Positions 31,728-40,741 of a stretch of DNA of 64,000 bases are shown in pieces. How positions within the stretch are numbered: the stretch's first letter is position 1; the number at the start of each line of letters is the position of its first letter. Source of the DNA: Candidatus Cryptobacteroides faecipullorum (lineage in GTDB: Bacteria > Bacteroidota > Bacteroidia > Bacteroidales > UBA932); contig JADIMH010000022.1 of NCBI GenBank assembly GCA_017694885.1, positions 1 to 64,000 of the forward strand. Reading direction: 5' to 3'. The notes below the pieces were generated by a model that saw nothing but the letters and a program-made list of their open reading frames with translations, was not told where the DNA came from and did no database searches. The position numbers and the translations under genes are program-made.

Positions 31728-32441
31728 TTATTCTGTTATAAATTCTTTTAAAATTTTTATCTCTTTATTTTTCAGTTCTTCAGCCGCATACTGCCTGGTC
31801 AGGACCGACATCCTGTGACAGTCAGAGCCCCAGCAGCTATACATCCCTTTTTCAAGCAGGGCTTCGGCTTTCTTCTTCGCCGAAGGACCGTAAAAGCCTG
31901 TCAGGGACGGAAGGTTAAGCTGGAAACGGACTCCCATAGCAGCCCACTTTTCATAGTCTGCCATTTCCATGTAGCGGTAACGTTCCGGATGTGCGAGCAA
32001 AGGACGGTAGCCGGCAGACATGGTGGAGTGAAGGATGGCTTCCATATTATACGGAGGATTCCAGGTAGAAGTCTCTACCAGTACCGTATCCTCTTCCATG
32101 GTCAGGAGATCACGCTCTTCCAGATGCCGCTCATACAGGGTGTCCAGCATGTATTCCGAAGCGAGGTTCAGCTCTATCTTTCCCTGGTAGGCTGCCTTCA
32201 GTCCGGAAAACCTCAACTGAAGGGCTTCGGTGGTGTTGGACATGTCCTCGGCCGTATGGGGAGTCAGCCAGAGGGATTTCAGTCCGGCATCCTCTAAGAA
32301 TGAAAGTATTTCCAGCGACTCTTCCATGGTCTTCACTCCATCGTCCACTCCCGGAAGGATGTGGCTGTGCCTGTCGACGCCACCGGAGAGAAGACCGGCA
32401 GAGAGTATGGAAGTCTTGCGGGTGAACAGGTCTTTAAACAT
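31728..32441 (-). CDS. CpsB/CapC-type PHP tyrosine-protein phosphatase
   Basis: [41 protein letters not shown]. Confidence 0.92.
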
Positions 32442-32468: not shown

Positions 32469-34898
32469 TCATTCCCCCCCCCCATAACCGTAACCGTAGC
32501 CGTATCCATAGCCATATTGTCCGTAACGGCTGTGGAAAGTCTCGACACCGTTCAGGATGAGAGACATCCTGTTGAGCTTTCCTGATGAGTACATCTGGGA
32601 GAGAAGCGGAAGTTCCCTCTTGTCGAACAGTCCTGCCCTTATCACGAACAGGGTCATGTCAACATGTCCGGATACTATATATGTATCGGCGACCATCTCT
32701 ACAGGAGGACAATCTATGAATATATATTCGTACTCTTTCCTCAGCCCAGATATCAGTTCTGCAAACCTCGGCGAGATCAGAAGCTCCGACGGGTTCGGAG
32801 GTATGCTGCCGACAGGAAGCAGGGAAAGATTTTCATCCACCTTCTTGACCAGTCCGTGGTAATCCTCGGAGCGCCCCGACAGGAAGGACGATACGCCTGT
32901 CGAATTCATGTTCAGGGCCTTGCTGAGGGTCGCTTTCCTCAGGTCAAGGTCTACCATTATGGTCTTTGCGCCTTTAAGCGCCATACTTGCCGCGATATTC
33001 ATAAGGATGAAAGTCTTTCCGGCATTCGGGTTGACCGATGTGGTCATCAGGATATGCGAAGAGGATTTTTTGTCTGTCATCATATCCAGGTTGGTACGCA
33101 TGACACGGAACGCCTCGTTTATGGAGTCGCGGCTGCCGCTCCTGACCATGATGTTCACATTGCTGTTATCGAACTTCTTGGCCTTAGTCAGACGGTTGAG
33201 TCCCTTGATACGAGGAGTGATCAGCGGGATTTCCCCGAGGAAAGGAACGTTCACTGCCGAGAGATCCGCCCGTCTGGAAATCGTGGTCTCGGACATCCTC
33301 ATTATGTACTGGACCGCGAACGGGATACCGCATCCGAAAATTACAGCGACCAGCAGCACCATCATCCTGTTAGGAGATATAGGTGCAGGAGCCCCGTTCG
33401 GGCTCATGATCAGTCTGGTGTTGGCTACGTTCACCAGACCTGCGATCTCGTTCTCTTCCCTTTTCTGAAGAAGGTAGATATACAGGGATTCCTTCACTTT
33501 CTGCTGTCTTTCGATGGAAAGGAGTTCCATCTCTGTCCCGGAGCTCGACGCGATCCGGCTCATTACCTGCTCTTCCTGCGAAGTCAGCTTGTCAGCCTGA
33601 AGGCTGAGGGTGGCGATAAGGTTGTCGATCGACCTTATGACAGTGGCCTTGAGGGCATTCAGAGAGGTGTTCATGTCCTGGATCAGAGGGTTGTTCTCGC
33701 TGCTGCCGGCCACCAGACGGTCTCTGGTGAGAAGCATGTCGTTGTAGTCCTTTATCTGGCTCTCGATATCGGTGTTGACCAGACCCGAGTTGGCAGGGAT
33801 AAGATCCTTAGAGTGTGTAGGATCCGTCATATAGCTGCGGATAAACTGTGCGATGGAAAGCTGGTTGCTCACCTCGAATGCCTGGGCGGAGTAGCCCGTG
33901 GATTCCTGAAGATAAGCCTGGGATGCCAGCTGTATGTCAGTAAGCTTGTTCTTTTCCTTGAAGTCTTTCAGGGAGGTTTCTATGCCTCCGAGTTCTTTCT
34001 CTATGACCACGAGACGCTCGTTGATGAATGCAGTGGTGTTGCGGGCCGAGCGGTTACGGTCGTGGATCCAGGTCTCGTTATAGACATCGATCAGGGTATT
34101 CAGTATGTTCTCCGCTCTGGATGGGAACACATCCTCGATGCCGAGGACTATTACGGAAGTCTGTTTTCCGGAAACTGCAGAAGTCAGCTTGGTACAGTAC
34201 GATTTTGCCCTGCTCTTGCTGTTCACCCAGGTAACCGTGAGTGGACGCTCCCACGAGTCGAAATTGACTGTAGAGCTCAGCATGAGCTTTCCTACAGGCG
34301 TCTGCAGTGTATCCCCGGTATGTCCTACTACCCTGTCCGCCTTTATCTTGTCCGGTCCTACCGTGAAATCATCGAGCACCAATATCTCTTTCGGTCCCTT
34401 TTTCAGCGAGAAACTGAAGGATGACTGTGGAATTCCTTCCAGGACGGTAAGCTCCACCGGAGTATTGTCATAAAGCTCTACTTTGCGCATGGCCTGACGC
34501 TCGACATAGCTTGTCTGGAGACGGAGCCTTTCCACGACTATCTGCATCAGGTCAGGAGAAGCGAATGCCTCTACTTCGTTGTTGACGTTCTCGCTTGCGC
34601 TTCCGCCGGTAGCGGCGCTGGCGAATGCAGCCAGATCGCGCATGGCTGCATCCTGGCCGTCTTCGCTGATAATGACCTTGGCAGTCCTCTGGTATACGGA
34701 AGGCGTCTTATACAGGTAAAAAGCCGCGAATACCAGACAGACGGCAACGCACAGCACGTACCACCACTTATATACCCATACCATTTCCCAGATATCCCGG
34801 ATGTTGAGTGAGGAACCGCTGTCCTCCTGGGCAAGAAAATCCTGATTATTTGTGTTTTCTGTCATTTCCCGATAATTTATAATAGAACTATTTTGCAA
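32469..34898 (-). CDS. Wzc-like polysaccharide co-polymerase / BY-kinase with Y-rich C-terminal tail
   Basis: Wzz domain; MTTSVNPNAGKTFILMNIAASMALKGAKTIMVDLDLRKATLS; YEYIFIDCPPVEMVAD; tail RYGQYGYGYGYGYGYGGGE. Confidence 0.94.
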   Translation of the reverse strand: MQNSSIINYREMTENTNNQDFLAQEDSGSSLNIRDIWEMVWVYKWWYVLCVAVCLVFAAFYLYKTPSVYQRTAKVIISEDGQDAAMRDLAAFASAATGGSASENVNNEVEAFASPDLMQIVVERLRLQTSYVERQAMRKVELYDNTPVELTVLEGIPQSSFSFSLKKGPKEILVLDDFTVGPDKIKADRVVGHTGDTLQTPVGKLMLSSTVNFDSWERPLTVTWVNSKSRAKSYCTKLTSAVSGKQTSVIVLGIEDVFPSRAENILNTLIDVYNETWIHDRNRSARNTTAFINERLVVIEKELGGIETSLKDFKEKNKLTDIQLASQAYLQESTGYSAQAFEVSNQLSIAQFIRSYMTDPTHSKDLIPANSGLVNTDIESQIKDYNDMLLTRDRLVAGSSENNPLIQDMNTSLNALKATVIRSIDNLIATLSLQADKLTSQEEQVMSRIASSSGTEMELLSIERQQKVKESLYIYLLQKREENEIAGLVNVANTRLIMSPNGAPAPISPNRMMVLLVAVIFGCGIPFAVQYIMRMSETTISRRADLSAVNVPFLGEIPLITPRIKGLNRLTKAKKFDNSNVNIMVRSGSRDSINEAFRVMRTNLDMMTDKKSSSHILMTTSVNPNAGKTFILMNIAASMALKGAKTIMVDLDLRKATLSKALNMNSTGVSSFLSGRSEDYHGLVKKVDENLSLLPVGSIPPNPSELLISPRFAELISGLRKEYEYIFIDCPPVEMVADTYIVSGHVDMTLFVIRAGLFDKRELPLLSQMYSSGKLNRMSLILNGVETFHSRYGQYGYGYGYGYGYGGGE
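32474..32483. repeat. Poly-C(10) (G10 in coding strand) tract at the 3' end of the wzc-like gene
   Basis: Direct count: attCCCCCCCCCCataaccg; encodes the terminal GGG(E) of the kinase tail. Confidence 0.97.
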
Positions 34899-35706
34899 GT
34901 ATGCTGACCAAAAGTGTTGCCACAGACACTAAGAGGGAGCCGGAAGATACCAGTATACTGGTGGTTCTCAGACCTTTGTCGTCTACAGTGGACTGGCGGG
35001 CCTTGACGGCGCTCGGCTCTACGTAGATGACGTCGTTCTGCTGCAGGTAATATGCAGGGGACTTGAAAAGGTCTACGGAGCAGAGGTCCATGTCATAGAA
35101 AGTCCTTTTCCCGTCGAGTTCGCGCATTACTGTCACATTTCCCCTCTTACCGAATATCGTAAGGTCTCCGGCAAGGCTTATGGCCTGAAGGACAGTAATC
35201 TTGTCGCCTTCCACAGTAAATGTACCCGGATGGTTGACCTCGCCGAGTACGGATACCTTGAAGTTCATGAACTCCACGGTGACCACCGCATCGTTAAGAA
35301 GACCTTTTTCCAAAAGACTGTCCTTGATCATCTCCGAGAGCTGCCATCTGGTCATGCCGCCTACCTGAAGCTGGCCCAGTACGGGGAAATCTATGTACCC
35401 GTCATTGTCCACCACATATCCCATCAGACGCTGCTGGCTTACATTCACGATTTCAGAACCTGCCTGATAGCTGATCACCGGAAGGTTGAACATAGGGACC
35501 AGTTCGGGATTCCTGCTCGACACCACGATCGAGATCATGTCCTTGGGCTGGATGACTATGCCGGTGTGCATGTCTATCTTTTCCGGATGGTTGTCCAAAC
35601 GGTTCTGGAAATAGGCGATATCCTTCACCTGGGCGCAGGAGACCGTCATGCCGACAGCCGCAAGAAGTATCAGCGCCTTTTTGATTTTTGATTTAAATAA
35701 ATCCAT
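34888..35706 (-). CDS. Wza-like polysaccharide export outer-membrane protein
   Basis: IQPKDMISIVVSSRNPELVPMFNLP...GYIDFPVLGQLQVGGMTRWQLSEMIKDSL; lipobox-like VSCAQ. Confidence 0.92.
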   Translation of the reverse strand: MDLFKSKIKKALILLAAVGMTVSCAQVKDIAYFQNRLDNHPEKIDMHTGIVIQPKDMISIVVSSRNPELVPMFNLPVISYQAGSEIVNVSQQRLMGYVVDNDGYIDFPVLGQLQVGGMTRWQLSEMIKDSLLEKGLLNDAVVTVEFMNFKVSVLGEVNHPGTFTVEGDKITVLQAISLAGDLTIFGKRGNVTVMRELDGKRTFYDMDLCSVDLFKSPAYYLQQNDVIYVEPSAVKARQSTVDDKGLRTTSILVSSGSLLVSVATLLVSILAK

Positions 35707-35734: not shown

Positions 35735-36292
35735 TTAATCGTTTTCAAGAATCTCGAGAGAGTCGGGGTTGACTGATGCCGTGGCGACGGAAAGTATTCC
35801 GCTCAGGCTCACCACCAGTTTCCTGTCTTTTGATTTTCCGCTTTTGACCAGGATGCCTTCCACTCCGTCCAGGGGACCGCCGTGGACCCTTACCTTCATC
35901 CCTTCGGTGAAGTTCCTGTCTCCTACGGGAAGGTAGTCCACGGTATCCCCGCCATCGTCCACCACACGCATGAAATCTTCCATGGCCTTGTCAGGAACGA
36001 TGATCGGGACAGCCTTACTGCCATTGCGGTCCATCATGTATTGGAGGAAAGTCACCCGCTCTTTGATTCGCTGAAGAGCTTCGCGGGCTGCATAGACGAA
36101 AATCAGATTATGCACGGCCGGAACCTGCATACGCCGGCGGCGGCCGTTTACGGTCCGCTCCCCTGTCCGCATCGGGATATAGCTCCTGATGCCGGCTTCT
36201 TTCAGCAGACTCTGCGCCTGCAGTTCCCTTCGGTAAGTGGCACGCATTGCATACCACTCTTCTGTCCGTGGTGCACTCAGTGTCTGTTCCAT
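35735..36292 (-). CDS. UpxY-like NusG-family capsule operon antiterminator
   Basis: EEWYAMRATYRRELQAQSLLKEAGIRSYIPM...VRVHGGPLDGVEGILVKSGKSKDRKLVVSL; first gene of capsule operon. Confidence 0.9.
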   Translation of the reverse strand: MEQTLSAPRTEEWYAMRATYRRELQAQSLLKEAGIRSYIPMRTGERTVNGRRRRMQVPAVHNLIFVYAAREALQRIKERVTFLQYMMDRNGSKAVPIIVPDKAMEDFMRVVDDGGDTVDYLPVGDRNFTEGMKVRVHGGPLDGVEGILVKSGKSKDRKLVVSLSGILSVATASVNPDSLEILEND

Positions 36293-36405
36293 TGGTCAGT
36301 CAGCTGCTGTCAGGGCATAGCTCTGGGGCTTTGGAGTAAGCATAAATCGCTGAGCCCCAAACACATATAACCTACACACATTTATCTCTACGCTCATGAT
36401 AATCT

Positions 36406-36427
36406 CTGTTACCCCGCAAGGGGACAG
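36406..36427 (-). promoter_or_regulatory. Hairpin at the extreme 5' end of the predicted capsule transcript
   Basis: CTGT-TA-CCCC-GCAA-GGGG-ACAG. Confidence 0.6.
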
Positions 36428-36438
36428 TAATCACGGTA

Positions 36439-36470
36439 CAAAAATATTACTTTATCCTATAATAAACAAA
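36439..36470 (-). promoter_or_regulatory. Bacteroidetes-type promoter of the capsule operon
   Basis: Minus strand TTTG (36470-36467) - N20 - TATTTTTG (36446-36439), matching TTTG/N19-21/TAnnTTTG. Confidence 0.75.
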
Positions 36471-36474
36471 TAAT

Positions 36475-36483
36475 CCCCCCCCC
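36475..36483. repeat. Poly-C(9) tract 4 bp upstream of the capsule promoter -33 box and just upstream of the divergent gene's -7 box
   Basis: Direct count: aaataatCCCCCCCCCataag. Confidence 0.97.
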
Positions 36484-36503
36484 ATAAGATGATAAATTTT
36501 TCT

Positions 36504-36511
36504 TAATTTTG
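36504..36511 (+). promoter_or_regulatory. -7 box (TAATTTTG) of the divergent DUF3467 gene
   Basis: Perfect TAnnTTTG; the region where a -33 box is expected is occupied by the poly-C tract. Confidence 0.55.
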
Positions 36512-36538
36512 CGAGGATTATCAAACAAAGGAAATATC

Positions 36539-36856
36539 ATGGCAAATGAAAAAGAACTGAGCATCGAGCTCAAACAGGAGGTAGCCAAAGGTTCATACTC
36601 GAACCTGGCCATCATAACCCATTCCCACAGTGAATTCATAATCGATTTTGCGTCTATGCTTCCAGGCCTTCCGAAACCGGAAGTAAGCAACAGGATCATA
36701 ATGACTCCCGAGCATGCCAAAAGACTGTTCATAGCCCTTCAGGACAATATCAGCAAGTACGAGTCGCAGAACGGCCCTATCACTTTCGGCGAGAGTCCGA
36801 AGGCCACTTTCCCTATGGGCGGGTTCGGAAGCAACGGCGGCAACACCAAGTCCTGA
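36539..36856 (+). CDS. DUF3467 domain-containing protein
   Basis: YSNLAIITHSHSEFIIDFASMLPGLPKPEVSNRIIMTPEHAKRL. Confidence 0.9.
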   Translation: MANEKELSIELKQEVAKGSYSNLAIITHSHSEFIIDFASMLPGLPKPEVSNRIIMTPEHAKRLFIALQDNISKYESQNGPITFGESPKATFPMGGFGSNGGNTKS

Positions 36857-36879
36857 GATGATCCTCCCAATTAATCGAT

Positions 36880-37422
36880 ATGCCGAACAATAATTTAGAT
36901 ACCGCCATTGCGGCCATCCGTGCCTTTGCATTCGATGTAGACGGAGTCCTCACTGACGGAGGGATTTTCGCCAACCTCGACGGCGAACTCTTCCGCACGT
37001 TCGATTCCAAAGACGGCTTCGCCCTCAGAATGGCTTCAATGCACGGATATCATATCGCCATCATTACGGGAGGCCGTTCGGAAAGCATCCGCAAAAGGTT
37101 CGTTACCTGCGGAGTGAAGCCGGAAGACGTGTATTTGGGATCCAGAGACAAGATAGCCGACTTCAACGACTTCTGTTCCAGACATTCGCTCCTGCCCCAT
37201 CAGGTGATGTATTTCGGGGATGATCTCCCTGATATCCCGGTAATGCAGGCATGCGGTATCGGAGTCTGCCCTTCGGATGCGGTAGCCGATGTAAAAGCCA
37301 TTGCCGATTACATATCGCCTTGCCCCGGGGGCAAAGGATGCTGCAGGTCTTCCATAGAAATGGTGATGAAATGCCATGGGAGCTGGTCGCTCGATGTATC
37401 GGAATATAAAAAGAAGTTTTAA
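36880..37422 (+). CDS. kdsC: KdsC-like HAD phosphatase (KDO-8-phosphate phosphatase family)
   Basis: AFDVDGVLTDGGIFAN...GGRSESIRKRF...YFGDDLPDIPVMQ. Confidence 0.9.
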   Translation: MPNNNLDTAIAAIRAFAFDVDGVLTDGGIFANLDGELFRTFDSKDGFALRMASMHGYHIAIITGGRSESIRKRFVTCGVKPEDVYLGSRDKIADFNDFCSRHSLLPHQVMYFGDDLPDIPVMQACGIGVCPSDAVADVKAIADYISPCPGGKGCCRSSIEMVMKCHGSWSLDVSEYKKKF

Positions 37423-37998
37423 ATGACACTTGCCGAAAAGAAAATCATCCTCGGAAGCGCTTCCCCCCGCAGAAAGGAAATTCTGGAAGGGATGGGACTG
37501 GAATTCGAGGTGGATACAGAAAACTCTTTTAAAGAAGAATACGGCCCCGACACTCCGCACGAACAGATTCCCGTGCTGATGTCCCGGGGGAAGTCGCACG
37601 GATTCCACCGTCCGCTGGAAAATGGTGAAATACTTATAACTTCAGACACTATGGTGCTTTGCAGAGGGCAGGTACTTGGAAAGCCGAAAGACAGGGAGGA
37701 TGCAGTCAGGATGCTGCGCCTTCTTTCAGGACACGTGCACAGGGTAATCACTGCGGTGACTCTGCGTGACTGCAATCGGGAAGTCACTTTCAGCGACACT
37801 TCGTATGTTCATTTCAAAGATCTGTCGGACAGCGAAATAGACTACTATACAGACACCTTCCGCCCCTATGACAAGGCAGGCGCCTATGCCATCCAGGAAT
37901 GGATAGGGTATGTAGGAATCACCAAGATCGACGGCTCCTATTACACTATAATGGGGCTTCCTGCGCACCGGGTGTATGAAGAGCTTCTGAAGTTCTGA
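37423..37998 (+). CDS. maf: Maf-like nucleotide pyrophosphatase
   Basis: IILGSASPRRKEIL...TSDTMVLCRGQVLGKPKD...DKAGAYAIQ. Confidence 0.95.
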   Translation: MTLAEKKIILGSASPRRKEILEGMGLEFEVDTENSFKEEYGPDTPHEQIPVLMSRGKSHGFHRPLENGEILITSDTMVLCRGQVLGKPKDREDAVRMLRLLSGHVHRVITAVTLRDCNREVTFSDTSYVHFKDLSDSEIDYYTDTFRPYDKAGAYAIQEWIGYVGITKIDGSYYTIMGLPAHRVYEELLKF

Positions 37999-40009: not shown

Positions 40010-40741
40010 ATGAATATAATCATAAAGAATATTCCGAATACAATAACTTCACTGAATCTGCTGAGTGGAGTCGCAGGGATAGTCTGCGCGTTTTCAGACA
40101 GGCTTGATGTTTCCTTTATCCTGATGCTTGCCGCCGCCGTCTTTGACTTTTTCGACGGTTTCGCAGCCAGGGCTTTAGGGGCATATTCCCCTATGGGAAA
40201 GGAACTCGATTCCCTGGCGGATTCAGTAAGTTTCGGCCTTCTGCCGGCTTTCATGCTGCACAGGCTGATGATATTTCTGACAGGAGCCGCGACCATATGG
40301 TGTTATATACCGTTGGTCGTCGCTCTTTTTTCTGTTCTGAGGCTTGCCAAATTCAACACCGATGAACGGCAGACCGAAAATTTCATCGGACTCGCCACTC
40401 CGGCCAGTGCCATGATCTGCGGTTCGCTGACATACTATCTGCTGCACCAGACGGACAGTATTCTGATTCCTCTGGCGCAGGGACATGTATTCATACCTGT
40501 AGTGTGTATAATACTGTCTGCACTGATGGTCAGCGAAATACCGATGTTCTCGATGAAATTCAAAAAAGGCATAAGCAAGGATTCCCCTTTATACAGGCAA
40601 AGGGTATCCTTCGCAGGAACAGTCGTGGTAGCGACCATTCTGGTTCTGACCTTGGGACTGAACTGGTCGATGATTGTCCTGCTGTCATTCGTGGCCTATA
40701 TCGTGATGAACCTGCTTTCCAGACCGCTGTTCGGGAAATAG
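40010..40741 (+). CDS. pssA: CDP-diacylglycerol--serine O-phosphatidyltransferase
   Basis: FDFFDGFAARALGAYSPMGKELDSLADSVSFGLLPA (CDP-alcohol phosphotransferase motif). Confidence 0.93.
   Translation: MNIIIKNIPNTITSLNLLSGVAGIVCAFSDRLDVSFILMLAAAVFDFFDGFAARALGAYSPMGKELDSLADSVSFGLLPAFMLHRLMIFLTGAATIWCYIPLVVALFSVLRLAKFNTDERQTENFIGLATPASAMICGSLTYYLLHQTDSILIPLAQGHVFIPVVCIILSALMVSEIPMFSMKFKKGISKDSPLYRQRVSFAGTVVVATILVLTLGLNWSMIVLLSFVAYIVMNLLSRPLFGK

Follow-up and report, generated by a model that had tools for sequence, protein, structure and literature searches.

The window analysed here is a 64-kb stretch of a metagenome-assembled Cryptobacteroides genome (2.43 Mb in 72 contigs). Its minus strand carries a capsule operon led by a gene for a UpxY-type NusG-like antiterminator of 185 aa (35735-36292; Pfam NusG, 4.6e-10), which is followed by genes for a Wza-type polysaccharide export lipoprotein (34888-35706; Pfam Poly_export and SLBB), a Wzc-type tyrosine kinase/chain-length protein with a Tyr-rich tail (32469-34898; Pfam Wzz, GNVR and AAA_31), a CpsB/CapC-type phosphatase (31728-32441; Pfam CpsB_CapC, 3.9e-36), and further capsule genes. 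By these Pfam assignments, with a NusG-like gene first and export and chain-length genes after it, the operon is of the UpxY-led capsule type. Its divergent neighbour on the plus strand is a DUF3467 gene (36539-36856; Pfam DUF3467, 2.2e-28), with genes for a HAD phosphatase (36880-37422) and Maf (37423-37998) on its 3' side, also on the plus strand.

The tract and its two promoters

Between the two divergent promoters, at 36475-36483, lies a homopolymer, C9 on the plus strand and G9 on the minus strand, the sense strand of the capsule operon. Read along the minus strand, the G9 is followed by ATTA (36474-36471), the -33 box TTTG (36470-36467), a spacer of 20 nt, and the -7 box TATTTTTG (36446-36439). 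The sigma-ABfr consensus of B. fragilis has TTTG near -33 and TAnnTTTG near -7 (PMC7366714), and the capsule promoter TTTG-N20-TATTTTTG matches it; the window contains the pattern TTTG-N19-21-TAnnTTTG three times, where shuffles predict 0.72. A preliminary description of this DNA had put the C9 tract 4 bp upstream of a perfect capsule promoter, and both the coordinates and the promoter elements bear this out. It had also put the tract in the -33 place of the DUF3467 promoter, correctly: the -7 box there is TAATTTTG (36504-36511, plus strand; TAnnTTTG precedes DUF3467 in most relatives), TTTG or TTG is absent 18-22 nt before it, and CCCC from the tract (36480-36483, plus strand) stands in place of the -33 box, 20 nt before TAATTTTG. 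About 85 bp separate the two predicted start sites.

In the nearest relative, G029, both -7 boxes are conserved (the capsule one as TACTTTTG), and the capsule -33 box is kept as CTTG. The DUF3467 -33 place reads CCACCCCCAT, with no -33 box, and the orthologous tract place reads GGGGGTGG, G-rich but interrupted. Conservation with G029 extends into the capsule leader (window 36300-36427, minus strand; about 4230-4384 in L166), as an early hairpin and an element GGGGCTCAG...AAAGCCCCAGAG, a candidate site for UpxY to act on the RNA. The palindrome CTGTCCCCTTGCGGGGTAACAG (36406-36427, minus strand) is predicted to form a hairpin where the leader begins. It is present in a single copy and was rejected as the arm pair of an invertible element; its resemblance to a CRISPR repeat (Rfam, E 0.012) is under the family cut-off and was put down to chance.

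Long C/G runs in the genome and the genus

Runs of this length are rare in the genome. Pattern counts, used as the own-genome background, give 22 C/G runs of at least 8 and only four of at least 9, all four in or beside envelope genes (SusC-like, DUF3575/OmpA, wzc, and the capsule promoter). The DUF3575/OmpA-type gene has its run in the signal peptide. At own-genome density, a run of 9 falls in a given 250-nt gap with a chance of about 4 in 10,000. Two of the four belong to the window's capsule operon, the second being a G10 run at the wzc 3' end (32474-32483, minus strand; tail ...YGYGGGE-stop). A change in its length, coming after the Tyr-rich tail, would affect no more than the final few residues of the protein or give it a short extension. 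Of the 18 eight-base runs, most are in SusC-like, HTCS, BACON or other secreted-protein genes, and C/G eight-mers in the window number 6, against 1.28 expected. A C8 also occurs in the leader of each of two lipoprotein-like paralogues that lie 2.2 kb from each other (L089 and L090; G000:C37:34917 and 37166).

Two of the genome's runs coincide with broken reading frames. A SusC-like TonB receptor gene (L068:8322-11670; G000:C9, tract 40524-40532) falls into two reading frames, with the break precisely at a G9 near its 5' end, and looks like a contingency gene in the OFF state. An outer-membrane gene (L095, minus strand, 1501-1508; G000:C61:9666), called DUF3575-like by resemblance rather than from a Pfam run of its own, goes out of frame exactly at a G8 and is followed by a FimB/Mfa2-like lipoprotein gene. 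Such breaks are the trace that slippage leaves, with assembly error possible for either single case.

Across the genus, G8-G10 is found within 400 nt upstream of upxY in 7 of 30 UpxY loci, the window being one of the seven; the other 23 have no run of at least 8 there. For runs of at least 8 in these loci, this amounts to 7 in 11.5 kb of upxY-upstream sequence versus 4 in 90.8 kb elsewhere (binomial P 5e-5), with about 0.10 upxY-upstream runs expected from own-genome density. All 11 runs have G on the sense strand. The window genome's second UpxY gene (C57) has a G8 268 nt upstream, and G358 has a G12 upstream of its UpxY operon. Flanks of the upxY runs share almost nothing, except in the near-identical pair G286 and G323, of which only G286 has a pure run (G8, where its near twin has GGGGAGGG); because the flanks are nearly unrelated, the association mostly arose, or was kept, independently. 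Position varies as well. In the window the tract adjoins the -33 box; L249, L251, L253 and L255 have it 74-77 nt before a -7 box, and L250 and L256 have it in the leader, some 60-70 nt past the -7 box. A single mechanism based on spacing therefore cannot account for all of these UpxY loci. In L253, L260 and L267 a G8-G10, again with G on the sense strand, occurs at or just past the upxY 3' end.

Loci with wza first are weakly suggested as a second enrichment: by hand count, 8 of their 14 runs are within 500 nt upstream of wza, although for three of those 8 the run is a G8 within the coding sequence of a wecA-like gene, and that of L169 is at the 3' end of this gene. A G8 is conserved in the wecA-like coding sequence before wza in three species (L201:4582, L202:4567, L236:4569).

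Fimbrial operons show a similar clustering. In 28 DUF3575 fimbrial loci, picked by protein similarity and not by tract, 5 runs occur in 9.1 kb around the start versus 5 in 99.5 kb elsewhere (P 7e-4; the tract-bearing query locus counts among the first 5). A scan of 400 genomes of the genus for runs of at least 8 located 17-46 nt before TAnnTTTG yields 104 G-run sites in 85 genomes (about 32 genomes in the reversed-pattern control, judged by eye) and 80 C-run sites in 67 genomes (about 39 in the control, likewise by eye), a modest enrichment of the promoter pattern over the reversed control. Several of the G sites head fimbrial operons with DUF3575/OmpA, DUF5119 and Mfa-like fimbrillin genes. 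Across the genus, the distances from run to -7 box are broadly distributed, with no sharp peak. At L151 (G169:C58), L152 (G217:C12) and L153 (G189:C7) a single G/C run lies between two divergent TAnnTTTG boxes, and the gene pairs sharing it are polysaccharide lyase/lipoprotein or SusC/lipoprotein.

Seven orthologous pairs keep a run, with flanks down to 51% identity. In four of the seven the length differs by one (G9/G8, G10/G9, G9/G8 and G9/G8; flanks 51-98% identical). The pairs were collected by means of the tract pattern and hence speak for persistence and length change between species, not for frequency.

It is possible, though we think it unlikely, that the tract is an ordinary homopolymer without regulatory role, a G-rich patch made pure by point change and drift. 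G029 has the interrupted GGGGGTGG at the same place, the length is only 9, eight-mers in the window are just moderately above shuffles, and most UpxY loci have no run. Against it, runs cluster upstream of upxY and DUF3575 genes and are absent from the control loci described below, every run in the UpxY loci has G on the sense strand, and orthologous runs persist while their flanks diverge.

The DUF3467 side of the tract

The preliminary description had proposed that changes in tract length would alter the composition or spacing of the DUF3467 -33 region, and hence that the capsule and DUF3467 genes could be tuned together. The first proposal fails on geometry. Because the end of the tract nearer the DUF3467 -7 box stays 20 nt from it, CCCC remains at -33 in every tract of at least 4, and slippage changes only DNA farther upstream. 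The second is unsupported, given the fixed -33, the lack of a -33 box in G029, and the absence of runs of at least 8 (0 in 93 kb) from 29 other DUF3467 loci. These 29 loci served as controls, and DUF3467 was rejected as the target of the tract on their account; in relatives the gene usually lies away from capsule operons. What stands of the earlier reading is a homopolymer beside the -33 box of a UpxY capsule promoter whose length could matter, with no invertible element; its joint tuning of DUF3467 is not supported. The tract most likely belongs to the capsule side, with DUF3467 mainly a bystander.

Joint tuning does have a precedent in the TA repeat of hifA/hifB in H. influenzae. That repeat forms part of both core promoters, whose spacing it changes, whereas the tract of the window is no part of the capsule core and leaves the DUF3467 -33 as it is at any length from 4 upwards, so it does not alter the spacing inside both cores. 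The likeness is that of one repeat between divergent promoters (van Ham 1993, as cited in PMC11868660). That one tract tunes both divergent genes here we consider improbable, despite its being abutted by both -33 regions with predicted starts so close together. Five other genomes of the genus do have a tract common to two divergent TAnnTTTG boxes, and in G169, G217 and G189 polysaccharide lyase, lipoprotein or SusC-type genes (lyase and lipoprotein by eye) are on both sides. At the window locus the unalterable DUF3467 -33, its absence in G029 too, and the tract-free DUF3467 loci elsewhere all tell against it. A weaker coupling is possible, since the tract is between both -33 regions and a length change would rotate one promoter against the other.

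Still less probable is a fixed element that does not depend on length, such as a protein-binding site, a stiff GC-rich insulator between the promoters, or a G-rich structure. G-richness kept in interrupted form (GGGGGTGG in G029, and GGGGAGGG in G323 versus G8 in G286) would suit it, but the recurring form is a pure run of 8-12 rather than a degenerate G-rich motif, and it stands at different places with respect to the promoter. An error of assembly, with the run or its length an artefact, is very improbable even for a 72-contig metagenome assembly in which homopolymers can be mis-assembled, as short-read assemblies seldom invent a C9 and independent genomes carry the same class of run at orthologous places.

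Proposed slippage and the control of surface coats

The reading we prefer, at slightly better than even chances, is that the tract is a slippage-prone contingency homopolymer that tunes transcription of the UpxY-led capsule operon and belongs to a set of G runs found before capsule and fimbrillin operons across the genus. As with known homopolymer contingency loci, the run is longer than chance at the promoter of a surface gene, and it recurs in relatives above background at UpxY and DUF3575 loci. The G9/C9 run would be lengthened or shortened by one base as it is replicated. Since the tract is directly upstream of the capsule -33 box, at about -41 to -49, each such change would rotate and shift the DNA upstream of it, which may be contacted by the RNA polymerase alpha subunits or by an activator. 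Capsule transcription would then vary stepwise among sister cells, and UpxY, as the product of the first gene, would relay the transcription level to the whole operon. For frequent slippage, a run of nine is close to the minimum length.

The closest parallel comes from H. pylori: next to the -35 box of sabA, a T-tract acts as a rheostat, output changing stepwise through the alignment of upstream DNA with the core promoter (PMC4081817). Both cases have a homopolymer immediately upstream of the -35 or -33 element of a surface-structure promoter, in the window 4 bp from the -33 TTTG. The sabA tract is a T-tract of about 13 backed by experiments; that of the window is a G/C run of 9 at a promoter of the sigma-ABfr type. 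At other UpxY loci the tract does not adjoin the core promoter, being 74-77 nt off or in the leader. Where it is in the leader, an effect at the RNA level, by analogy with the G-repeat targeting of RepG, would be as likely; RepG of H. pylori targets a G-repeat (PMC8295292). The tetranucleotide repeat of N. meningitidis nadA (PMC2791445) is, like the tract, upstream of the core promoter, where it alters the spacing to distal elements; it lies between NadR operators, in contrast to the homopolymer of the window, which has no known operator beside it.

The promoters of the capsule operon and of the Bordetella fimbrial genes differ in where the run sits. In Bordetella the fim run replaces the -35 box, downstream of activator sites; in the window the capsule -33 box is intact, although the C run does occupy the -33 place of the DUF3467 promoter. 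The C-stretch of fim2, fim3 and fimX (PMC1891110) nevertheless resembles the window tract as a C/G run in surface-gene promoters, its length changing transcription in that system, and runs of the same class are found at the fimbrial operons of the window's genus.

Invertible capsule promoters of Bacteroides have the same target, a UpxY-led operon, and phase variation as the presumed outcome. The window differs in having no inverted repeats of at least 14 nt within 36200-36900, as the preliminary description had also reported, so that any switching would be through slippage. An invertible element in the window was rejected accordingly, there being no flanking repeats and a single copy of the palindrome. 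Around the G029 capsule promoter there are likewise no repeats; a lone 17-nt imperfect pair in L166 is confined to the DUF3467 side, with the capsule promoter not enclosed by it. Other relatives do have such repeats. At L233:4061-4252 a UpxY capsule promoter lies between 23-nt inverted repeats (96%) and is likely invertible. In G358 the upxY promoter region (L163:2870-3087, G358:C56) lies between 25-nt inverted repeats (100%) with the G12 inside, possibly an invertible promoter and a homopolymer in one.

Taken genus-wide, slippage at G homopolymers may form a phasome, placed before UpxY operons and before DUF3575, DUF5119 and Mfa-like fimbrillin operons, inside SusC and HTCS genes, and beside invertible promoters (in G358 inside one, an on/off switch joined to a graded dial); we put this a little short of an even chance. 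Our searches of the open-access literature turned up no account of phase variation through homopolymer tracts in Cryptobacteroides, and where the surface coats of gut Bacteroidales vary in phase, DNA inversion is almost the only mechanism considered. If the reading is true, a second layer, of replication slippage, would act on capsule and fimbria promoters, and run-length mixtures should be visible in existing metagenome reads. What genomes say about capsule variation, phage escape and immune interaction would then have to be read differently.
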